Shown here in pieces: positions 16,533 to 63,232 of a stretch of DNA of 64,000 bases. The DNA comes from an uncultured Clostridia bacterium (GTDB lineage Bacteria; Bacillota; Clostridia; Oscillospirales; Ruminococcaceae), in assembly GCA_945876435.1 (NCBI GenBank), contig CAMCOD010000006.1, forward strand, positions 1 through 64,000. The letters are read 5' to 3'. The stretch's first letter is position 1. Each line of letters begins with the position of its first letter. Made by a program: the position numbers and the translations under genes. The notes beneath the pieces are model-generated. The model was given only the letters and a program-made list of their open reading frames with translations. It was not told the origin of the DNA and did no database searches.

Positions 16533-18137
16533 ATGAAACACTTTTTTTTGCTCATTCTGACGCTATGTCTGCTGCTGAGTACGCTTTGCGGCTGCGGTAA
16601 GACCTCGTCATTGATCCGATATGATATTTCGTCCTCTGTAAGCAACCTGGACCCACAGTTTGCAACAGATGAAACCGATCAGATGGTGATTCACAATCTG
16701 TTTGAAGGGCTGCTGCGCCAGCTCCCCAACGGGGAGGTAGTCAACGCTCTGGCGGAATCCTACACCATTTCTCAGAATGATACGGTATATACCTTCTATC
16801 TGCGGCAGGATGCCCGCTGGAGAACGGAAGCTCCGGTAACGGCAGCGGATTTTGTGTATGCGTTCCGCCGCATTTTTAACGCCCTGTCCCCATCCCCTTA
16901 CACCCAGTATTACTTGTCCTTGAAAAATGCCCAATCCATTCTAAATGGAGATGTACCGGTAGAAGCGCTTGGCGTCCGGGCAATTGATGACTATACACTG
17001 GAATTTCAACTGTCTCAACCGGACTCTTCCTTTCTGGAGAGCCTTTGTCATTCCGCCGCGATGCCCTGCAATCAGGAATTTTTCGAGGGAACGCGGGGAA
17101 AATACGGCACGACCCGCAACTCTGTGACGTCCTGCGGCCCCTTCTTTTTGAATCTGTGGGACGAGGAAAAACTGTATTTAAAGAAAAATACCATGTATTA
17201 TGATGAGTATGGTGTGCAGACGCCAGGCGTGTATTTGTATATCGGCCGGGAAAAGGCGGCTGAAGATGGGGAAGGGGCGGTAAGTCTCTATGACCTGGTT
17301 CTGGAAGGAAAATCCGACAGCTGCCCGGTGACTTTTGAGCAGGCGGAGGCCGCCAAAGCCCTTGGTTATAGCTGTCAGGAGCATATCGGAACCGTTTGGG
17401 GCTTGGTAGTAAACCCCAAGCATCCCCAGTTGTCCAATGAACAGATCCGCCACTCCTTTTTCCATTCCATCAACAGGGCGGAGCTGGACGGTTATTTAAC
17501 AAAAAATATGGTTCTTACAGATCGCCTGATTGCCCCGGAAATTTCTCTGTTTACAGAATCTTATGTTCAGTCGACTTCCGTTAAGACCAACCTCTATGCT
17601 CCAATGGAGGCCCAGGAAGAACGAAAAAACGGCCTGGAAGAGCTGGGTAGCCTGACCCTGGACAGCATGGAGCTTTTGGTACCGGAAGGAGGAAATGTCC
17701 CCTTCCTCAGCGGTATGCTCCAGCAGATGTGGCAGCGGAATCTTTCCGCTTTTGTTAATATCGTAGCATTACCTCAGGCAGAACTGGAAAAAAGGGTAGC
17801 GGAGGGAAACTATGATCTGGCAATTGTGCCCTTTATCTCCTCAGCCAACACACCTTATGATATTTTGTCCCGTTTTGCCAGCGATTCTGCGCTGAATCAA
17901 TGGGGATATTCCAGCGAAACCTATGATGAGCTTCTGCGGACTGCTTCAGTTTCCTCGGAAGAAGCGGTTTCCCGCTCTGCGTATGTGCAGGCAGAGGAAC
18001 TTTTGTACAGCGACTGCGCAGTATTCCCTTTGTTTTATGAGATTTCTTATATTCTGTTTGCTCCAAACGTAAGCGGTATTGAAATTTATCCTTATGGAGG
18101 CATGGTTCGCTTCCAAAATGCCGTTGCAATCCGATAA
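16533..18137 (+). CDS. Orphan peptide-binding lipoprotein (SBP family 5)
   Basis: A 534-residue extracytoplasmic solute-binding protein of the oligopeptide/dipeptide (family 5) class. A lipoprotein signal ends at Cys21 (TLCGC); the SNLDPQFATDETDQ start and the DARWRTEAPVTAADFVYAF segment are typical of OppA-like proteins. AGGAG precedes the ATG. It has its own terminator and no adjacent permease, so it may work with the importer just downstream or act as a peptide sensor. It shares gross architecture but not close sequence with that importer's binding protein. Confidence 0.88.
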   Translation: MKHFFLLILTLCLLLSTLCGCGKTSSLIRYDISSSVSNLDPQFATDETDQMVIHNLFEGLLRQLPNGEVVNALAESYTISQNDTVYTFYLRQDARWRTEAPVTAADFVYAFRRIFNALSPSPYTQYYLSLKNAQSILNGDVPVEALGVRAIDDYTLEFQLSQPDSSFLESLCHSAAMPCNQEFFEGTRGKYGTTRNSVTSCGPFFLNLWDEEKLYLKKNTMYYDEYGVQTPGVYLYIGREKAAEDGEGAVSLYDLVLEGKSDSCPVTFEQAEAAKALGYSCQEHIGTVWGLVVNPKHPQLSNEQIRHSFFHSINRAELDGYLTKNMVLTDRLIAPEISLFTESYVQSTSVKTNLYAPMEAQEERKNGLEELGSLTLDSMELLVPEGGNVPFLSGMLQQMWQRNLSAFVNIVALPQAELEKRVAEGNYDLAIVPFISSANTPYDILSRFASDSALNQWGYSSETYDELLRTASVSSEEAVSRSAYVQAEELLYSDCAVFPLFYEISYILFAPNVSGIEIYPYGGMVRFQNAVAIR

Positions 18138-18175
18138 AAAACAGCCTCTGCATGGATCAGCAGAGGCTGTTTTTA
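18135..18175 (+). terminator. Terminator of the orphan binding-protein gene
   Basis: AAAAACAGCCTCTGC pairs with GCAGAGGCTGTTTTT around an 8-nt loop. Confidence 0.92.
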
Positions 18176-18303
18176 TGTTTAGCTGTCAAACAAGTTTCTA
18201 ATAAAATTATTCCAAAATGTGATTGATTATGCAAAATAACACAAAGCTTTCCGGCGGAGGATTTTTATTTTTGTTTAAAAGCGAAAATCTATAGAAAAAC
18301 TCA

Positions 18304-18328: not shown

Positions 18329-18374
18329 AAAACTATTTGCTAAAAAGATTTTCATGAGGTAAAGTATTCTTGAA

Positions 18375-18460
18375 ATTGTGCAAGAAAGGCATAAACATGC
18401 CGAATTTTGTTGATGGTCGACAAAATTATGCACAATGGGTATCTTCATCCGGGAGATACC
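18375..18460 (+). ncRNA. Structured 5' leader: three-way junction plus hairpin
   Basis: Perfect complementary segments nest as follows. ATTGTGCA (18375-18382) pairs with TGCACAAT (18429-18436) as an outer stem. Inside it are GGCAT-AAAC-ATGCC (18388-18401) and AATTTTGT/ACAAAATT (18403-18427, 9-nt loop). Directly after it GGTATCT/AGATACC (18438-18460) forms another hairpin ending 13 nt before the AAGGAG site of the binding-protein gene. The arrangement resembles a small riboswitch or regulatory leader but does not match a class I know. Pairing is seen in the sequence; function is inference. Confidence 0.5.
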
Positions 18461-18486
18461 GGGACAATAAAAAAAGGAGAATCTTT

Positions 18487-20133
18487 ATGCAGAAAAGAAT
18501 CATGGCATTGTTTCTTGCTGCTGCGATGGCTCTGTCTGTGACAGCATGCAATTCCAGCACGGAACAGAAAAACGAAACCAGCACCGAGCAGAAAACGGAA
18601 ACAACCACCCCAGCAGAAACCACCCCAGCAGAAACCACTCCAGAAGTAAGAGATACTTTTACGGTAGCCATCAGCTATATGCCAGATACGCTTGCTCCAC
18701 ATACCGGTGGTTCTGATGACTACACCTCTATGACCCGTCCGCTGTATGATAAACTTTTCATTGAAAACAATGAAGGTGGTATCGACTACTACTTGGCAGA
18801 CAGCCTGGAAATTTCTGAAGATGGCCTGACTTACAAGATCCATATTCGTGATGACGCAAACTGGTCTGATGGTACTCCAATCACAACCAAAGATATTCAG
18901 TTCTGTGTTGACTACTCGATCCATAAATACGGCTACAACAGATACTGCCGGGTCAATGGCGTAGAAGGTACAATTAATATCATTGATGACAAGACCGTTG
19001 AATTTATTCTGCCTCAGCCATACAACTATGAGATCGTTACCCTGTCTGGCATGACGGTTTACCCAAACCATGTCTTCAACGGTGATCCGGAAGCGCTGAT
19101 CAACTCCACCGAATACTACAATAAACCGGGCTTTGTGACCTCCGGCGCCTATACTGTAACCGAGATCAATGAGGACAGCTTTGTTTGCACTGCAAGAGAT
19201 GACTACTACAGAGGTACTCCATCTGTTAAGAAAGTTGTTATGAAAGTAATCGGCTCCGGTTCCACCAGAGCCATCGCTTTTGAAAATGGTGAGATCGACT
19301 ATATGCGTATCACTACCATTGATGAGCTGGAAAAATATGAGGCTCAGTCTGACAAATACAATATCTTCTCCATGTCGGAAGCTCGTCTGAACTACCTGCA
19401 GGTAAACCCATTTGGTCCAGCGAACCTGAATGATGAACAGCGCGAAGCTCTCTTCTATGCGATCAACGGCGATGAAGTTATTGCAGGCGCTTACGGCTCT
19501 GAAAAACTGGCTACCAATCCAAATTCTCTGCTGACTCCGGACATCAGCCTGTACAATCCGGAAACACCGGACTATGTTTACGATCTGGAAAAGGCAAAAG
19601 AGCTGGCGAAATCTTCCGGTCTGGAAGGCATGACCCTGACCTACATCTATAACAAAGACCGTGCAAACATGGAAGCTGTAGCGGTTGTTCTTCAGCAGCA
19701 GCTGGCACAGATCGGTGTTACCCTGAACATCGAAGGCATGGATTCCTCTTCCTTCTTCCCAAGATTCTTCGCCGCTTCTTCTTATGGCATGAATGGCCAG
19801 GAAAAAACTTGGGATCTGGGCACCAACGGTTGGGACTCCATGAGAGGTTCTACTCTGAATCAGGCTTACTCCTATCTGAATCAGTCTTCCAACGCTTGGG
19901 GCTTGACCGATGTCTGCGGTGAGCTGGCGGCTAAAGTAAATACCACTACCGATAAAGCAGAAGCACAGAAACTGGCTGACGAAGTGATTGAGTTGGCTCT
20001 TGCTCAGCACCGTATCTACCCGCTGACTTACACCAACTATGTTATGGTTTCTCAGAAATATGTAACCGGTCTGGATTGCAGTCCAATTGTTCCAGAGTTC
20101 ATTGACTACCTGGGCATTTCCGTTAACGGTTAA
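18487..20133 (+). CDS. Peptide ABC transporter substrate-binding lipoprotein
   Basis: A 548-residue family 5 solute-binding lipoprotein. The signal peptide ends in SVTAC (lipid-anchored Cys21), followed by a Thr/Glu/Pro-rich linker with an AETTP repeat (about residues 41-52) and the binding domain (DTLAPHTGG, DDANWSDGTPITTKD). ATG 18487 has AAGGAG 7 nt upstream; the frame stays open further upstream only because the structured leader lacks stops. Proline is mostly CCA and codon choice looks optimised, unlike most neighbours, so expression is probably high. It heads a five-gene importer; a terminator follows it. Confidence 0.92.
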   Translation: MQKRIMALFLAAAMALSVTACNSSTEQKNETSTEQKTETTTPAETTPAETTPEVRDTFTVAISYMPDTLAPHTGGSDDYTSMTRPLYDKLFIENNEGGIDYYLADSLEISEDGLTYKIHIRDDANWSDGTPITTKDIQFCVDYSIHKYGYNRYCRVNGVEGTINIIDDKTVEFILPQPYNYEIVTLSGMTVYPNHVFNGDPEALINSTEYYNKPGFVTSGAYTVTEINEDSFVCTARDDYYRGTPSVKKVVMKVIGSGSTRAIAFENGEIDYMRITTIDELEKYEAQSDKYNIFSMSEARLNYLQVNPFGPANLNDEQREALFYAINGDEVIAGAYGSEKLATNPNSLLTPDISLYNPETPDYVYDLEKAKELAKSSGLEGMTLTYIYNKDRANMEAVAVVLQQQLAQIGVTLNIEGMDSSSFFPRFFAASSYGMNGQEKTWDLGTNGWDSMRGSTLNQAYSYLNQSSNAWGLTDVCGELAAKVNTTTDKAEAQKLADEVIELALAQHRIYPLTYTNYVMVSQKYVTGLDCSPIVPEFIDYLGISVNG

Positions 20134-20151: not shown

Positions 20152-20184
20152 AAAAGCTGCCCTTGAAAAAGGGCGGCTTTTTTC
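20152..20184 (+). terminator. Intercistronic terminator after the binding-protein gene
   Basis: AAAGCTGCCCTT pairs with AAGGGCGGCTTT (one G-T pair) around GAAA and is followed by T7. It lies inside the operon just before the permease ribosome site, so partial read-through would lower permease expression relative to the binding protein. Confidence 0.85.
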
Positions 20185-20201
20185 ATAGAAAGGAAGAACC
20201 A

Positions 20202-21170
20202 ATGCTTAAATATTGTTTAAAAAAAGCGGGTCAGGTTGCCATTGTAATGCTGCTGATCTCCTTTTTCTCCTTTGCGATCATTGATTTGGCCCCCGGCGAT
20301 ATCTCATCCATGTATATTACGGAAGATATGACCGAGGAAGAGAAGGCCATTGTTATCGAAAAGCTGGGTCTGGACAAAAGTATGCCGGAACAGTATCTGG
20401 CCTGGCTGGGGGAGGCGCTGAAAGGTAATTTTGGCGTGTCTCTCTCCTATAAAACACCGGTTATGCCCATGCTGACCAAGCGGCTTCCTTCCACCATTCT
20501 GCTGATGGGAACCTCGCTGGCGGTGTCGCTGGCCCTTTCCATCCCCTTAGGGTTGATTGCGGGCTACAAAAAGAATACCTGGATCGACAATGCCATCAGC
20601 GGTTTCGCCTATTTTGGCATGTCCATCCCATCTTTCTACTTCGGCATGCTGATGATCATCCTTTTCACCGCTACATTGCACCTTCTGCCATCCTCCGGTA
20701 TGCATTCGGTTGGAGTGAATACGCCCATTGATACGCTGATGCATATGATCATGCCGGTCATGACCATGGCTCTCAGCTCTATGGCCTCCAAAGTCCGCTA
20801 CGTCCGGGCCAATACCATTGGCCAACTCAGCGAGGAATATGTTCTTGCGGCGAAAGCAAAGGGTACATCGCCGGTTAAGATCCTCTTCAAACATGTTCTG
20901 AAAAATACTTTATTGCCCATCATTACGATTGTTGGTATGAATATGGCTTCTCTGGTCTGCGGTTCCTTTATTATTGAAAGCGTGTTCGGCTGGCCGGGCA
21001 TCGGCAGCTTTGCCATGGAGGCCATCGGCAAACGGGATTATACGATTATTATGGCCTACATCATGCTTTCCGGCTTTATTCTGGTTATGGGTAACTTTGT
21101 AGCCGATATTCTATACTCCTTCGCTGATCCAAGAATTAAAAGGGGGATTGACGTAGCTAATGGAAAATAA
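20202..21170 (+). CDS. Peptide ABC transporter permease, DppB/OppB type
   Basis: A 322-residue inner-membrane permease of the binding-protein-dependent family. An N-terminal helix (about 9-31), an extracytoplasmic loop containing the LGLDKSMPEQYLAWL segment, and five further helices are seen; the EAA loop that docks on the ATPases is EEYVLAAKAKGTSPVKILFKH-like, near residue 210. ATG 20202 was chosen over an upstream in-frame start that falls inside the terminator. It overlaps the next gene by 11 nt. Confidence 0.93.
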   Translation: MLKYCLKKAGQVAIVMLLISFFSFAIIDLAPGDISSMYITEDMTEEEKAIVIEKLGLDKSMPEQYLAWLGEALKGNFGVSLSYKTPVMPMLTKRLPSTILLMGTSLAVSLALSIPLGLIAGYKKNTWIDNAISGFAYFGMSIPSFYFGMLMIILFTATLHLLPSSGMHSVGVNTPIDTLMHMIMPVMTMALSSMASKVRYVRANTIGQLSEEYVLAAKAKGTSPVKILFKHVLKNTLLPIITIVGMNMASLVCGSFIIESVFGWPGIGSFAMEAIGKRDYTIIMAYIMLSGFILVMGNFVADILYSFADPRIKRGIDVANGK

Positions 21171-22077
21171 TCTTGTACTGAACGAAAAATCCTTCCAGCG
21201 TATGGAGAAAAAGCAGAAGGATTTAGGGGTTGTTTATCATCGAAGCATCTGGAAAGATGTAAAGAAAGAAATCAAATCCAACCCAATGGCGGTATTTGCC
21301 TGCATTTTTTTAGCAGTTATCATCATAGCCTGTCTTTTGGCTCCGCTGAGCCCCTATGATCCCAACAAACTGGATATCGCCAATAAGTTTTTGGCACCTT
21401 CTCTGCAGCATCCGTTTGGAACCGATGAATATGGCCGGGACTATTTCACCCGAGCCCTTTATGGCGGACGCGTTTCGCTGCTGGTTGGCTTTTCCGCCAT
21501 GTTTGTAACCATCTGCATTGGTACGACGATCGGTATTTTTTCCGGTTATATTGGCGGGAAGCTGGATATGCTGCTGATGCGCTTTACGGATATTTTTCTG
21601 GCTTTGCCATCCATGCTGCTGATGGTTGTCCTGAACTCTTTTCTGAAACCGGGTATGACGACTTTGATTTTGGTATTGAGTCTCTTCTCCTGGGCATCCG
21701 TGGCCCGTATTACCCGTGCTGAAACCATGTCGCTGAAAGAAAGAGATTATGTAATCGCCTCCAAGAATCTGGGTGCAAGCAGTGTACTGATCGCGGTAAA
21801 ACATATTCTGCCCAACATTCTGGGTCCGGTTATTGTAGCGGCCAGCCTGGGCGTAGCCAGCGCAATTCTCACCGAATCCTCCCTCAGCTTTTTAGGCTTG
21901 GGCATATCGATCCCCCACGCTTCCTGGGGCAGCATGCTGCAGGGTGCGCAGAGTTATATTTTGGATAAGCCGATGATGGCGGTTTATCCAGGTCTTCTGA
22001 TCCTGCTTACCGTCCTCAGCTTCAACATTTTGGGCGACGTGCTCCGCAGCGCCCTGGAACCGAAAATTGTAAAATAA
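21160..22077 (+). CDS. Peptide ABC transporter permease, DppC/OppC type
   Basis: A 305-residue second permease subunit. A cytosolic N-terminus of about 45 residues precedes the first helix, then the family motif PFGTDEYGRDYFTRALYGGR and the EAA loop with DYVIASKNLGAS. It pairs with the preceding subunit to form the membrane channel. Its start overlaps the previous gene by 11 nt and the ATPase gene follows after 10 nt, so the genes are translationally linked. Confidence 0.93.
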   Translation: MENNLVLNEKSFQRMEKKQKDLGVVYHRSIWKDVKKEIKSNPMAVFACIFLAVIIIACLLAPLSPYDPNKLDIANKFLAPSLQHPFGTDEYGRDYFTRALYGGRVSLLVGFSAMFVTICIGTTIGIFSGYIGGKLDMLLMRFTDIFLALPSMLLMVVLNSFLKPGMTTLILVLSLFSWASVARITRAETMSLKERDYVIASKNLGASSVLIAVKHILPNILGPVIVAASLGVASAILTESSLSFLGLGISIPHASWGSMLQGAQSYILDKPMMAVYPGLLILLTVLSFNILGDVLRSALEPKIVK

Positions 22078-22087
22078 GGAGGAAATC

Positions 22088-23116
22088 ATGAATACACTTG
22101 TTGAAATCAAAAACCTTTCCGTTTCTTATTTTACCTATGCCGGTGAGGTACAATCTGTTCGGGACATCTCATTCTCCATCGAAAAAGGAAAAACCACCGC
22201 TCTTGTGGGAGAGTCCGGCTGCGGCAAGTCGGTAACGTCCAAATCCCTGATGGGACTGATCGAAAAACCCGGTGTGATTAAAGAGGGTAGCCAGATCATT
22301 TATAATGGCAAGAATATTCTGGACTTTAACCCAAAGGAATGGAATGCTTTCCGGGGCAAAGAGTGCTCTATGATCTTCCAGGATGCTCTGGTATCTCTGA
22401 ACCCCACTATGATGGTGGGAAAACAGATCATGGAAAACCTGGAGAATCACAATGAAGAAGGCCTTTCCAAAGGAGAATTGCGGAAAAAAGCCAAGGAAAT
22501 GCTGGATATGGTAGGGATACCGGATGCGGAAAGCTGTTTGAACAAATATCCCCATGAACTTTCCGGCGGTATGCGTCAGCGGGTAATGATCGCCACCGCT
22601 CTGATTACCCATCCTACCCTGTTGATTGCCGATGAGCCAACCACCGCGCTGGACGTGACCATCCAGGCTCAGATTTTAGAGCTGATGAAGGATTTGCAGA
22701 AAAAGCTGGGTATGGCTATTATTATGATCACCCATGATTTGGGTGTTGTGGCTGATATCTGCGATGACATTGTAGTAATGTATGCGGGAAAAATCGTGGA
22801 AAAGGGCAGTAATGAGGACATTTTCTATCATCCTCGTCATCCATATACCTGGGCACTGATGAATTCTGTGCCTCGACTGGATCTGGACAGCAAAGAAGAA
22901 CTGGTGACAATCGAGGGAACCATCCCGGACATGATCCATCCGCCGAAAGGCTGTGCTTTCTGCAGCCGCTGTCCGTACGCCATGAACATCTGCGCGGAAC
23001 AGACTCCGGAGGTCCTGGATTTGGGCAACGGTCATGAGGTTTCCTGTTGGCTGACGGACCCTCGTGCAGATGTCAGCGGCGTACCATTCCAAACCGGAGG
23101 TGTTGATCATGAGTAA
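22088..23116 (+). CDS. Peptide ABC transporter ATPase, OppD type
   Basis: A 342-residue ABC ATPase with Walker A GESGCGKS, signature LSGGMRQR, Walker [13 protein letters not shown] and the switch His in MITHDLG. The C-terminal OppD/DppD extension has the Cys-rich motif [14 protein letters not shown], which in relatives holds an iron-sulfur cluster. It energises import with the OppF-type partner. It overlaps the next gene by 8 nt (ATGAGTAA). Confidence 0.94.
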
Positions 23117-24080
23117 CAGACCTGTCGAACTGGAAGTAAAACACCTGTGCAAATACTATAACGCAGGCAGAAAACGCCTGCTGAAAGCGGTGGATGACGT
23201 TTCCTTCGATATTTATAAAGGAGAAACCCTGGGGATTGTGGGTGAGTCCGGCTGCGGCAAGACCACCTGCGGCAAAACCTGTATCGGTATGCTGGAGAAA
23301 ACCGGCGGTGAAGTGAAGTTCCAAGGCAAGGATGTTCACACCCTGTCCAAAAAGGAGCGCTTTGACTTCAGCGGTAAAGTCCAGATGATTTTCCAGGACC
23401 CTTATGCTTCTCTGGACCCGCATCAGAAGGTGTACGACATTGTAGCGGAGGGTATCCGCATCCATAAACTGGCGAAAGATAAGGCAGAGGAAGAACATAT
23501 GGTGCTGGAACTGCTGGATATGGTGGGTTTAAACGCCGAACATGCTATGCGCAACGTCCATGAGTTCTCCGGCGGCCAGCGTCAGCGCATCGGTATTGCC
23601 CGCGCGCTGGCAGTTGACCCGGAGTTCCTCTTCTGCGACGAGCCGATTTCGGCGCTGGATGTTTCTATTCAAGCACAGATCATCAACCTGCTGATGAAGC
23701 TGCAGAAGGAAAAACATCTGACTATGTTGTTTATTGCCCATGACCTGTCTATGGTAAAGCATATCTCTGACCGTATTGGTGTTATGTATCTGGGAAACAT
23801 GGTGGAACTTTCCGGCTCCTCCGACCTTTACCGGAAGCCTCTCCACCCCTATACACAGGCATTGTTGTCCGCGGTACCGATTGCGGATCCAAAAGCCTCC
23901 CGGGAACGGAAAAAAATCATGCTCACCGGGGATGTACCCAGTCCGGTGAACCCTCCGGCTGGCTGCCGCTTCAGCGGACGCTGCAAATACTGCATGAGCC
24001 AGTGCTTTGATTTGAAACCGGAGCTGAAGGAAGTGGAAGCAGGTCATTATGTGGCGTGTCATCTGTACGATGAGAAATAA
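23109..24080 (+). CDS. Peptide ABC transporter ATPase, OppF type
   Basis: A 323-residue ABC ATPase with Walker A GESGCGKTT, signature FSGGQRQR, Walker B LFCDEPISALD and FIAHDLS. The C-terminus carries the paired-Cys CRFSGRCKYCMSQC extension matching OppD. ATG 23109 follows GGAGG; an earlier in-frame start inside oppD is not credible. Last gene of the importer operon; a strong terminator follows. Confidence 0.94.
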   Translation: MSNRPVELEVKHLCKYYNAGRKRLLKAVDDVSFDIYKGETLGIVGESGCGKTTCGKTCIGMLEKTGGEVKFQGKDVHTLSKKERFDFSGKVQMIFQDPYASLDPHQKVYDIVAEGIRIHKLAKDKAEEEHMVLELLDMVGLNAEHAMRNVHEFSGGQRQRIGIARALAVDPEFLFCDEPISALDVSIQAQIINLLMKLQKEKHLTMLFIAHDLSMVKHISDRIGVMYLGNMVELSGSSDLYRKPLHPYTQALLSAVPIADPKASRERKKIMLTGDVPSPVNPPAGCRFSGRCKYCMSQCFDLKPELKEVEAGHYVACHLYDEK

Positions 24081-42588: not shown

Positions 42589-42617
42589 TTGACAAGGAGG
42601 CGTTTTTGCAATATCAT
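42589..42617 (+). promoter_or_regulatory. Promoter of smsCB
   Basis: Perfect TTGACA and TATCAT with a 17-nt spacer, 59 nt before the ATPase gene. Confidence 0.75.
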
Positions 42618-42675
42618 TATAGAGTATCTTAGGATTGTTTTCCCATGGAAAACAAAGGAATGAAGGGGTATTTCT

Positions 42676-43401
42676 ATGTTGATTTTGGAGAACATCACCT
42701 GGTCGGTTCCCGATGGCGATTCCATCCTGAAGGGTGTGGATCTGGTGATTCCGTCCGGAGGGTTAACGGTGATCACCGGCCCAAACGGAGGCGGTAAAAC
42801 CTCTCTGGCAAAGATTGTGGCAGGGTTGTACAAGCCGGACAGCGGACGAATCCTGCTGGATGGAGAAGATATTACCAACTTGTCCATTACAGAGCGGGCC
42901 AGAAAGGGTGTGGGCTATGCTTTTCAGCAGCCGGTGCGCTTTAAAGGCATTACAGTTCGGGATCTTCTGGAACTGGCAGCGGGCCACCCATTGGAGGAAA
43001 GCGAGCTCTGCGATATTTTAGGCAGTGTGGGTCTGTGCACCCATGACTATATTGACCGGGAGGTCAGCACCGGTTTGTCCGGAGGAGAGATTAAGCGTAT
43101 CGAAATTGCGTCTGTTCTGGCAAGAAGCGATACCAAGCTGACGATTTTCGATGAACCGGAGGCAGGAATTGACCTGTGGAGCTTTGCGGGTCTGATTGAA
43201 GCGTTTCAGAAGCTGAAAACCAAAAATTCCGGCTCCATTCTGATTATTTCCCACCAGGAACGCATTTTGAATATTGCCGATGAAATCGTCGTCATTGCCG
43301 AAGGCAAGGTAAGGGCCAAAGGCAGCCGCGATGAAATCATGCCGGTTCTCTTGGCGGATGAGAAGGCAGCCCACTGCCCGCGAGGAAAAGAGGTTTACTA
43401 A
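42676..43401 (+). CDS. SufC-type ATPase of the minimal Fe-S scaffold (SmsC)
   Basis: A 241-residue SufC-like ABC ATPase that works on the Fe-S cluster scaffold. Walker A GPNGGGKTS, signature LSGGEIKR, Walker B LTIFDEPEAGID with the GID ending characteristic of SufC, and the switch in ISHQER are visible. Only one SufB-like partner follows and no sufS/sufU is adjacent, which matches the two-gene SMS system described for anaerobes. Its stop overlaps the next start (TAATG). Confidence 0.85.
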   Translation: MLILENITWSVPDGDSILKGVDLVIPSGGLTVITGPNGGGKTSLAKIVAGLYKPDSGRILLDGEDITNLSITERARKGVGYAFQQPVRFKGITVRDLLELAAGHPLEESELCDILGSVGLCTHDYIDREVSTGLSGGEIKRIEIASVLARSDTKLTIFDEPEAGIDLWSFAGLIEAFQKLKTKNSGSILIISHQERILNIADEIVVIAEGKVRAKGSRDEIMPVLLADEKAAHCPRGKEVY

Positions 43402-51111: not shown

Positions 51112-51320
51112 CCCAGAAGTTTTTGTGTGCAGACAGGTCTCCCGGCTGAGTCTTATCCTACTGAAGCACCTTCCCATCCATTGCGGACAGTGGTTTGCCG
51201 AAAAAACGGCGGCTTGTTCGATGACATTCACGGTTACTGGGATAGCTCGGGATTTCCACCCGATTCCCTCGGCCCGGATCTTTGCTTCCGGACCGGCGCA
51301 GAGGCGCAAAAACACACTTT
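51112..51320 (-). ncRNA. Cobalamin riboswitch
   Basis: On the minus strand the region carries the B12 box AGCCGGGAGACCTGTCTGC (51147-51129), the upstream GGTGGAAATCCC core element, and GCCGCC...CCACTGT junction pieces in the right order and spacing for an adenosylcobalamin-class aptamer. A terminator between it and btuF suggests transcriptional control: high cobalamin stops btuFCD expression. Confidence 0.93.
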
Positions 51321-51501: not shown

Positions 51502-52437
51502 TTATCCGATGACGTACCAGTACAGCCCCGCCATCAGCGGAATGGTTACGACGCATAGGGTAATGGAAACAAGATTGATCGCGCTGGCATATTCCGCGTC
51601 CCTGCCATAAAGCTGGGCCATTTGGGTGATGTTTACAGCGGGAGATGTACAGGTGGCAAGGAAGGAAATGAACAGAATGGTATCCGCATTTGGAAACAGG
51701 GAGGCAGCTCCGCTGAGTTTGAGAATACACAACATCATCAAAGGACAGAACAGAAGCCGCACGAAAGCAATTTTATAAATTCGGACGTTGCAAAAGACCT
51801 GTTTCAGCTTGAATTTGGCCATCAGCATACCCAGTACAAACATTCCCAGCGGAGCCATCAAAGCCCGCAGGGAAGAAAAAGTGCCGGTGATCAGCGCCGG
51901 CAGGCGAATTCCACTGAGAAACAAAAGAACAGCCACAAAAATACTGATCATATTGATGTTGCCAAGGATTTTTTTCCAGTGAAAACCTTTATCACCGCAA
52001 AGCATACTGCGGCAATGGGTCCACAGCGTAACGATTTGTACAGCAATATAGGCACTGGTGTAAAGAACCCATTCTTCGCCCAGCACAGACAGAACAATGG
52101 GAATGATCATGTTGGCGGCGTTGCTGTACATGATGGAAGCTTTCTCCACTTCGCTCCACTGGCGCCGCTTTCCCACCGTGGAAATAAGAAGCAGGAAAGC
52201 CAACTGACTGATGATGGCGGCGGCAAAAGCCAGCAGAAGGCCGTTCATGGTCTGGGCGTTGAAGTCAATTTGAAAAGCGCTGATAATGACACAGGGTGTG
52301 ACCAGATAAACGGCGATGGAGGACAGCACCCGACTGTCTTCAGACTTCAAAATACCGGCTTTGACGATGCCGTAACCCATCAGCATCATGAGGAGAAATT
52401 GGAGCAGCTGGTTTAGGATCAGGATAGCGATCTGCAT
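51502..52437 (-). CDS. AEC family transporter
   Basis: A 311-residue membrane protein with about ten helices in two inverted repeats, matching the auxin efflux carrier (AEC) family that exports organic acids or amino-acid derivatives in bacteria. Recognisable stretches are VSSIAVYLVTPCVIISAF-like helix 2 and ATCTSPAVNITQMA near the C-terminal half. Substrate unknown. Monocistronic, upstream of the btu promoter; no clear terminator was found. Confidence 0.85.
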   Translation of the reverse strand: MQIAILILNQLLQFLLMMLMGYGIVKAGILKSEDSRVLSSIAVYLVTPCVIISAFQIDFNAQTMNGLLLAFAAAIISQLAFLLLISTVGKRRQWSEVEKASIMYSNAANMIIPIVLSVLGEEWVLYTSAYIAVQIVTLWTHCRSMLCGDKGFHWKKILGNINMISIFVAVLLFLSGIRLPALITGTFSSLRALMAPLGMFVLGMLMAKFKLKQVFCNVRIYKIAFVRLLFCPLMMLCILKLSGAASLFPNADTILFISFLATCTSPAVNITQMAQLYGRDAEYASAINLVSITLCVVTIPLMAGLYWYVIG

Positions 52438-58394: not shown

Positions 58395-58447
58395 TGGCGA
58401 AACAGCAAGGCCGTTTTCTGCCGCACAGAAAACGGCCATCTTCGCCA
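58395..58447 (-). ncRNA. Long hairpin in the yedE leader
   Basis: Outer stem TGGCGAA/TTCGCCA (7 bp), an asymmetric internal loop (3 nt and 7 nt), then a perfect 12-bp stem GGCCGTTTTCTG/CAGAAAACGGCC closed by 5 nt. No T run follows on the minus strand, so it is not a terminator; it sits 32 nt upstream of the yedE ATG. It could be a regulatory RNA element. No known riboswitch class is recognised. Confidence 0.5.
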
Positions 58448-61915: not shown

Positions 61916-63232
61916 ATGAGTAAAATTAAAATTGTTCAGTATATCAACCAGTTCTTTGCTCAGATCGGTGGCGAAGAGAAAGCTGATATCAAACCAGAAC
62001 TGAGAGAAGGCGTTGTTGGTCCTGGTCTGGCATTCAACCAGGCTTTCGGCGACGAAGCTGAAATCGTAGCTACCGTTATCTGCGGTGACTCCTACTTCGG
62101 TGAAAACATTGAGAAAGCTTCCGCAGAAGTTATCGAGATGGTTAAATCCGTTAACCCTGATATGTTCATCGCTGGCCCTGCATTCAACGCTGGTCGTTAT
62201 GGTGTAGCTTGCGGTACTATCTCTAAAGCTGTTAAAGACGCTCTGAACATTCCAGTACTGACCGGTATGTATGTTGAAAACCCAGGTGCTGATATGTTCA
62301 AAAAGGATATCTACATTGTATCCACCAAAAACTCCGCTGCTGGTATGAGAGATGCCATCAAGAAAATGGCTCCTCTGGCTCTCAAACTGGCAAAAGGCGA
62401 GCCAATCGGCGCTTCCTGCGTAGAAGGCTACATGCCAAACGGCGTTCGCGTAAACCTGTTCGAAAAAGAATGCGGCGCTGCTCGTGCAGTTAAAATGCTG
62501 GTTGCAAAACTGAACAACAAACCTTTCGAAACCGAATTCCCAATGCCTGACTTTGACCGCGTAGATCCAAATCCAGCTGTTAAAGACATGGCTCACGCTA
62601 CTGTTGCTCTGTGCACCTCCGGTGGTATCGTTCCTCACGGCAACCCAGACAGAATCGAGTCCTCTTCCGCATCCAAATACGGTGAGTACGACATCACTGG
62701 CGTTGAAGATCTGGACGCTGCTGGTTGGGAAACCGCACACGGCGGCTACGACCCTGTATACGCTAACGAAGACGCTGACCGCGTTCTGCCAGTTGACGTA
62801 ATGAGAGAGTTCGAAAAAGCCGGCAAGATCGGTAAACTCTACAACAAATTCTACACCACCGTTGGTAACGGTACCGCAGTTCTTTCTTCCAAGAAATTCG
62901 CTGAAGAATACGCTGCTAAAATGAAAGCAGACGGCGTTGACTGCGTAATTATGACCTCTACCTGAGGTACCTGCACACGTTGCGGCGCAACGATGGTAAA
63001 AGAAATCGAACGTGCTGGCCTGCCAGTTGTACACGTTTGCACAGTAACCCCAATTTCCATGACCGTTGGTGCTAACAGAATCGTACCAGCAATCGCTATT
63101 CCTCACCCACTGGGCAACCCAGCTCTGAGCAAAGAGGAAGAGCTCCACATCAGAAGATGCATCTGCGAGACCGCTTTGAAAGCTCTGCAGACCGAAGTTA
63201 CCGAGCAGACTATCTTCGATGTTAAATACTAA
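61916..63232 (+). CDS. grdB: Glycine reductase component B, selenoprotein gamma subunit
   Basis: A 438-residue selenoprotein with an in-frame TGA at 62963-62965 decoded as Sec350. The motif is STU-GTC-TRC (U-x2-C-x2-C), the known GrdB active site, where Sec350 matches the studied enzyme. It removes the amino group from the bound substrate together with GrdE, passing a carboxymethyl group to selenoprotein A (not in the window). Reading continues in frame to 63232 with family-typical PHPLGNPALSKEEE. A SECIS-like hairpin lies just after the TGA. Confidence 0.96.
62978..62992 (+). other. Candidate bacterial SECIS apex hairpin
   Basis: CGTTGC-GGC-GCAACG is a 6-bp stem with a 3-nt loop beginning 13 nt after the Sec UGA, at the distance bacterial SelB-binding hairpins use. 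Confidence 0.6.

Follow-up and report, generated by a model that had tools for sequence, protein, structure and literature searches.

Positions 18375-18460 of a 64,000-nucleotide (nt) stretch of DNA from an uncultured, probably gut-dwelling Clostridia bacterium of the Ruminococcaceae (contig CAMCOD010000006.1 of assembly GCA_945876435.1; the whole stretch is called the window below) hold the predicted fold in the leader of a gene encoding a family 5 solute-binding lipoprotein (18487-20133, plus strand; PF00496, E 3.9e-62), the first gene of an operon that likely encodes a peptide importer. We lean, with little more than even confidence, towards reading this leader as a stem-loop at the 5' end of the mRNA that most likely acts as a protective stabiliser of the message. 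Stem-loops that stabilise mRNA from its 5' end are an already known kind of element. Comparison with leaders of the same genus supports the maintenance of pairing in two helices of this leader, P1 and P4, through compensatory changes.

Predicted fold of the leader and its persistence among relatives

All parts of the leader are encoded by the plus strand. Its outer stem, P1, comprises 8 base pairs (bp) between ATTGTGCA (18375-18382) and TGCACAAT (18429-18436), and both arms are defined by sequence, fold and hand-registered covariation. In the window, P1 encloses two hairpins, P2 (18388-18401), in which GGCAT (18388-18392) pairs with ATGCC (18397-18401) over 5 bp, and P3 (18403-18427), with 11 bp between 18403-18413 and 18417-18427 in the minimum-energy fold. 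A single base separates P1 from the hairpin P4 (18438-18460), which has 9 bp, one G-U pair included, between 18438-18446 and 18452-18460. An earlier reading of this DNA, made from the letters alone and referred to here as the sequence-only reading, had described four complementary segments in the leader, and these are present in the sequence as well as in the fold. The lengths it gave hold for the outer (8 bp) and the smaller inner stem (5 bp); P3 and P4 are longer than the 8 and 7 bp it assigned to them. The distance of 13 nt that it noted between the last hairpin and the ribosome site is confirmed as that from the end of P4 to the Shine-Dalgarno (SD) sequence AAGGAG (18474-18479), which lies in A-rich surroundings, is unpaired in the fold of the window leader alone and precedes the ATG of the open reading frame (ORF) at 18487. 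Its statement that no terminator follows was nearly right, the scan of the plus strand giving a sole, weak terminator-like site of 5 bp at 18388-18401, with the tail GAATTTTGTT, inside P1.

The segment 18365-18480 folds with -35.6 kcal/mol, against a mean of -19.7 for shuffled sequences (z-score, z, -5.05), and 0 of 200 shuffles equal it; for 18371-18486 the respective values are -35.5 kcal/mol and a z of about -5. Among the 32 of 46 script-called genes of the window that have at least 116 nt of free upstream space, only one has a leader with a lower z than this one; that top-ranked leader (gene ending at 52437, minus strand) holds, judged by eye, a terminator-like hairpin.

Matches to the binding protein are found in all six genomes of the genus that were searched. 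Besides the window, four close orthologs are known in the genus (87, 83, 70 and 66% identity, the last being a fragment at a contig end), and one further genome of the genus, G038, has only a 38% match. In a sample of 297 genomes of the family, matches at E 1e-60 are restricted to five genomes, all of the same genus, and a scan of named genomes yielded 151 stretches that fit the pattern, 59 of which encode a relative, at 58 loci. Eight leaders were compared, namely that of the window (locus L031), the same-genus leaders L038, L039, L048 and L041, and the more distant leaders L040, L042 and L043, which precede orthologs of 69-71% identity that came from the scan of named genomes and lie outside the six genomes of the genus. 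Loci L044-L047 (52-59% identity) were kept apart from the eight, and for them the 147 nt directly preceding the start codon were folded (-22.1, -21.7, -29.9 and -13.0 kcal/mol, respectively); the paralogs L035 and L036 (38-39% identity) do not enter the counts.

The z values of the eight leaders are -5.0 (window), -1.7 (L038), -3.5 (L039), -4.4 (L048), -4.1 (L041), -1.2 (L040), -4.8 (L042) and -3.0 (L043). In a repeat with controls, the mean z of the leaders was -3.3, compared with -0.3 for DNA of equal length lying just 5' of the -35 element and -1.1 for the antisense strand. When the eight leaders are folded from the assumed transcript start, the minimum-energy fold of every one shows a large stem-loop close to its 5' end, and the best 5' stem is reached by 9 of 500 shuffles in L038 and in L048, by 12 in L041, by three in L042 and by two in L043. 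Counted from the assumed start, pairing begins at base 2 to 13 in the folds of the leaders alone (at base 5 in the window) and at base 2 to 15 when 30 nt of the gene are added. Where the SD sequence is paired in a minimum-energy fold, its partners belong to the 3' end of the leader or to the start of the gene, and never to the arms of P1 or P4.

What lies within the large stem differs from leader to leader. The window alone has two inner hairpins, the other seven leaders having a single, often interrupted hairpin, and the three-way junction of the sequence-only reading is thus not a conserved plan. The interior of P1 seems free to change, with two hairpins here and one in the relatives, and the junction is an elaboration met with only in the window species. 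Leaders L040, L042 and L043 share a hairpin resembling TGAATTTTTATTCA inside the large stem, that of L040 being one T shorter. A further observation concerns P4, where GGGAG (18451-18455) resembles an SD sequence and recurs in P4 of L048 and L039; it could be a ribosome decoy or a stabilising site.

Within the genus, the pairing of P1 and P4 withstands the replacement of their bases. With the arms registered by hand, which favours the structure, 36 of 40 cells of P1 pair in the five same-genus leaders, and only 4 of 120 assignments of arms to one another, the true one included, do equally well. In P4, likewise registered by hand, 29 of 32 cells pair in the four leaders that remain when L038, in which P4 is weak, is left out, and the true assignment alone of 24 reaches that number; double changes in P4 are seen in L048, L041 and L039. 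Both helices are also found by RNAalifold in the alignment A5 of three leaders, with changes on both sides in 11 of the 26 predicted pairs, a count that includes doubtful inner pairs and pairs of the SD region. Other alignments were set aside: a MAFFT alignment of the bare arms of P1, in which the palindromes slid, and the alignments A2 and A4, in which P1 was misplaced in L038 or L039. The compensatory changes by which the sequence-only reading had proposed to judge the stems are therefore present in P1 and P4, and P2 and P3 have no counterpart in the relatives.

Turnover of letters and searches for similar leaders

While the fold persists, the letters of the leader are poorly kept. Over the ten pairs compared, the identity of the leaders (per longer length) is 0.48-0.60 and the shuffled means are 0.45-0.54, with only two pairs (window with L048, and L048 with L041) clearly above the best of 30 shuffles. 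The corresponding values are 0.55-0.75 for the promoter and 0.63-0.73 for the first 470 nt of the gene. An identity of leaders near the background is expected where shape outweighs letters. A short motif, GGNATA-N5-GCC, lies between the arms of P1 in the window, L048 and L041, that is in three of the five same-genus leaders, and by eye in neither L038 nor L039. At this place GGCATAAACATGCC of the window (18388-18401) aligns in A5 with GGGATAGTTACGCC of L048 and GGGATATCTGCGCC of L041 at equal spacing, and it folds as a hairpin in the window only.

For the covariance-model search of relatives advised by the sequence-only reading, a model, R1, was built from three sequences (window, L048 and L041). 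It is weak by construction; it recovers these training members and misses the same-genus leaders L038 and L039. Beyond its training set it matches positions 42589-42678 of the window (E 1.3) and L044 (E 2.4). In 197 genomes of the family, 43 have a match to R1 at E of at most 1, the best one outside its own genome having an E of 0.017, and no match was obtained in the same-genus genomes G038 and G145. A DNA search of the same 197 genomes with 18340-18486 gave matches at E of at most 1 in 158 of them, and the best off-site match (E 0.004 over 27 nt) is of the size expected by chance. At the gathering thresholds of Rfam 15, no match was found for the leader in the window or in the eight loci searched (L031 and seven orthologs); two matches that appeared at a lax threshold, with E of 3.6 (opposite strand) and 7.4, were rejected as chance ones. 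Among the matches listed in the literature search, there is no study of this leader.

Proposed stabilisation of the message and the alternatives

In the mechanism that we favour, the RNA would begin about 4 bases ahead of P1 and would be transcribed from a sigma-A-type promoter that is conserved in the genus. Its -35 element, TTGCTA (18337-18342), and its -10 element, TAAAGT (18360-18365), both on the plus strand, are separated by a 17-nt spacer and follow the pattern TTGNNN-N17-TAAANT, which is present in 5 of 5 same-genus leaders and places the predicted start at about 18371-18373. With 8 of 12 matches to the consensus, this promoter falls under the threshold of the pattern scan and is hence not listed by it. 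In its own genome the motif has 17 matches with at most two mismatches, compared with 18 for a reversed control, which indicates no regulon; a match with no mismatch is found only at this leader. With its 5' end closed, the RNA would offer no single-stranded end to RppH or RNase J, and the message for the first and presumably most needed product of the operon, the binding protein, would live longer. The genome of the window species encodes both RNase J and RNase Y, whose scores of 621.5 and 736 bits, respectively, exceed the family cut-offs.

Several known systems offer points of comparison. Emory, Bouvet and Belasco reportedly described, in 1992, the 5'-terminal stem-loop of Escherichia coli ompA as a stabiliser. 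The ompA leader, which precedes the gene of an envelope protein, consists of a 5' stem-loop, a second hairpin, a short single-stranded stretch and the ribosome site, and its shape matters more than its letters. Its order of parts is like that predicted for the leader studied here, where shape likewise appears to outweigh letters. The two differ in that RNase J and RNase Y, which were searched for, are encoded here, and in that the start and the stabilisation are predicted here. According to an excerpt of PMC3997798, long downstream regions can be stabilised in Bacillus subtilis by a hairpin, a ribosome site or a bound protein that lies at the 5' end or close to it, and RppH requires unpaired 5' nucleotides. 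The Bacillus stabilisers covered by that excerpt share with this leader the hairpin near the 5' end, and the latter has two helical domains. The part of PMC7509114 that deals with delta-ermC mRNA reports that a stem placed too near the SD sequence reduced stability; such a close stem was harmful there, and P4 ends 13 nt from the SD sequence here. As stated in a portion of PMC8219983, selective RNA processing and stabilisation stem-loops control the transcript stability of chosen genes in Clostridium operons; these are alike in being clostridial stem-loops concerned with stability, and that of the present leader sits at the 5' end.

A number of results weigh against a protective role. The folds of L040 and L038 are only slightly stronger than those of their shuffles, and the strength of P1 alone is modest, being reached by 29 of 500 shuffles in the window (L031); for the best 5' stem of L039 and L040 the numbers are 114 and 342, so that chance is within reach. 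In pairs 3 to 5 of P1, changes on both sides are seen only in L038, where P1 was placed by the fold and not by the alignment. Of the eight leader-only folds, three, that of the window included, leave the whole SD sequence unpaired, and with 30 nt of the gene the probability that this sequence is unpaired ranges from 0.04 to 0.80 (0.53 in the window). The 110 nt lying 5' of the promoter have an identity of 0.57-0.65, hardly above that of the leader, and a plain selection for shape has no need of a motif such as GGNATA-N5-GCC. In the distant leaders L040, L042 and L043 the -10 element is a guess, as the promoter pattern has no match in L040 and L042 and matches at another place in L043. Finally, the paralog L035 (38% identity) has by eye a candidate 5' hairpin, yet its minimum-energy fold pairs the SD sequence.

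That the fold has no function and arose by chance in an AT-rich intergenic stretch would agree with the ease with which shuffles reach P1 alone and with the two of eight leaders that fold near the background. The mean z of -3.3 over eight orthologs, as opposed to -0.3 for the adjacent DNA, and the compensatory changes make this decidedly unlikely in our view. If, instead, the stems served to keep the ribosome entry region unstructured, or acted as a standby site, translation and not the life of the mRNA would be raised. The A-rich stretch after P4 is indeed unpaired in four of five leader-only folds of the genus (not in L038), and the SD sequence is at least half unpaired in four of eight leaders (0.53, 0.65, 0.80 and 0.56); however, it is completely free in no more than the three leader-only folds mentioned above, and its probability of being unpaired is as low as 0.04-0.22 in L038, L041 and L048. 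We regard this explanation as rather improbable.

Possibly, the stems display a docking site at which an RNA-binding protein or a small RNA controls the translation of the binding protein, an explanation that is unlikely and still keeps some weight. The oppA mRNAs of other bacteria are targets of small RNAs. Here, GGGAG is shared by P4 of three of the five same-genus leaders (window, L048 and L039), and GGNATA-N5-GCC by the window, L048 and L041; however, neither motif is present in all five, and GGGAG is absent from all three distant leaders. The sequence-only reading had gone further and suggested a regulatory RNA, perhaps a new riboswitch, in which the junction would be the aptamer for a peptide, an amino acid or a nucleotide and would act on translation or RNA stability. 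A strong junction fold before a transporter operon, the covariation of P1 and P4, and the motif common to the window, L048 and L041 inside P1 all accord with this. Nevertheless, an aptamer core is expected to be kept across species whose binding proteins are 66-87% identical to that of the window, and the leaders share no more than a short motif, present in three of the five; this argues against a riboswitch. The inner architecture differs from the two-hairpin junction in 7 of 7 relatives, the motif was not seen by eye in L038 and L039, R1 misses these two leaders and has a best off-site E of 0.017 in the family, Rfam offers no match, and the only terminator-like site is the 5-bp one inside P1. 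From that suggestion, a structured and functional leader is upheld by the covariation of P1 and P4, and the riboswitch we hold to be very unlikely.

A bolder form of the stabiliser hypothesis may also be considered, in which selection acts on the fold only, so that letters and inner architecture are replaced and the closed 5' end is kept, and the leader would be a tunable dial of mRNA lifetime responding to growth or peptide supply. The architectures spanned by such selection would include a three-way junction, single hairpins and long interrupted stems. We consider this version doubtful, with a small chance of being correct.

The operon, other elements of the window and implications

The gene upstream of the leader (16533-18137) encodes another binding protein of the Pfam family SBP_bac_5. 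A terminator-like hairpin at 18140-18171 (plus strand), read from the sequence and unlisted by the pattern scan, follows it and likely separates two transcription units. Between this hairpin and the promoter, a block at 18190-18225 (ACAAGTTTCTAATA..ATTCCAAAATGTGATT), about 110-150 nt 5' of the -35 element, can also be discerned in L048 and L041 and could be an operator or a second promoter. An in-frame TTG/ATG reading through the leader (18370-20133) was rejected, as the signal peptide begins, by eye, at 18487. The nearest sequence match of the 18487-20133 protein in the PDB is the Lmo0135 protein (5isu, E 1e-44). Downstream, at 20163-24080 on the plus strand, are genes for two permeases and two ATPases of the Opp/Nik type, with mechanically listed starts at 20163, 21160, 22088 and 23064. 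None of the five operon proteins meets a listed NCBIfam cut-off, the comparison of the ATPases being limited to the best 25 of 189 and 187 families.

Other structured elements were noted elsewhere in the window. The leader at 58396-58446 (minus strand) of the Sulf_transp gene (YeeE-type, PF04143; 57254-58363) has the third lowest z of the 32 ranked leaders, and it follows the same plan as the peptide importer leader, a long two-part hairpin being followed by an A-rich stretch with the SD-like AGAGGA. A cobalamin riboswitch (Rfam, 84.2 bits) lies at 51115-51312 on the minus strand. The Rfam element SECIS_4 (61.9 bits) at 62966-63003, on the plus strand, is directly 3' of an ORF ending at 62965; this ORF is possibly a selenoprotein gene, in which case its stop codon would specify selenocysteine.

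The five leaders of one genus and the three distant ones make up a natural comparative series, in which a predicted 5' structure is kept and the sequence turns over. They also carry a warning, namely that a junction that folds strongly in one genome and has little shared core in its relatives makes a poor candidate for a riboswitch. Should the leader indeed be a stabiliser, gut clostridia would have, in the protection of the 5' end, one means of favouring the messages of their binding proteins.
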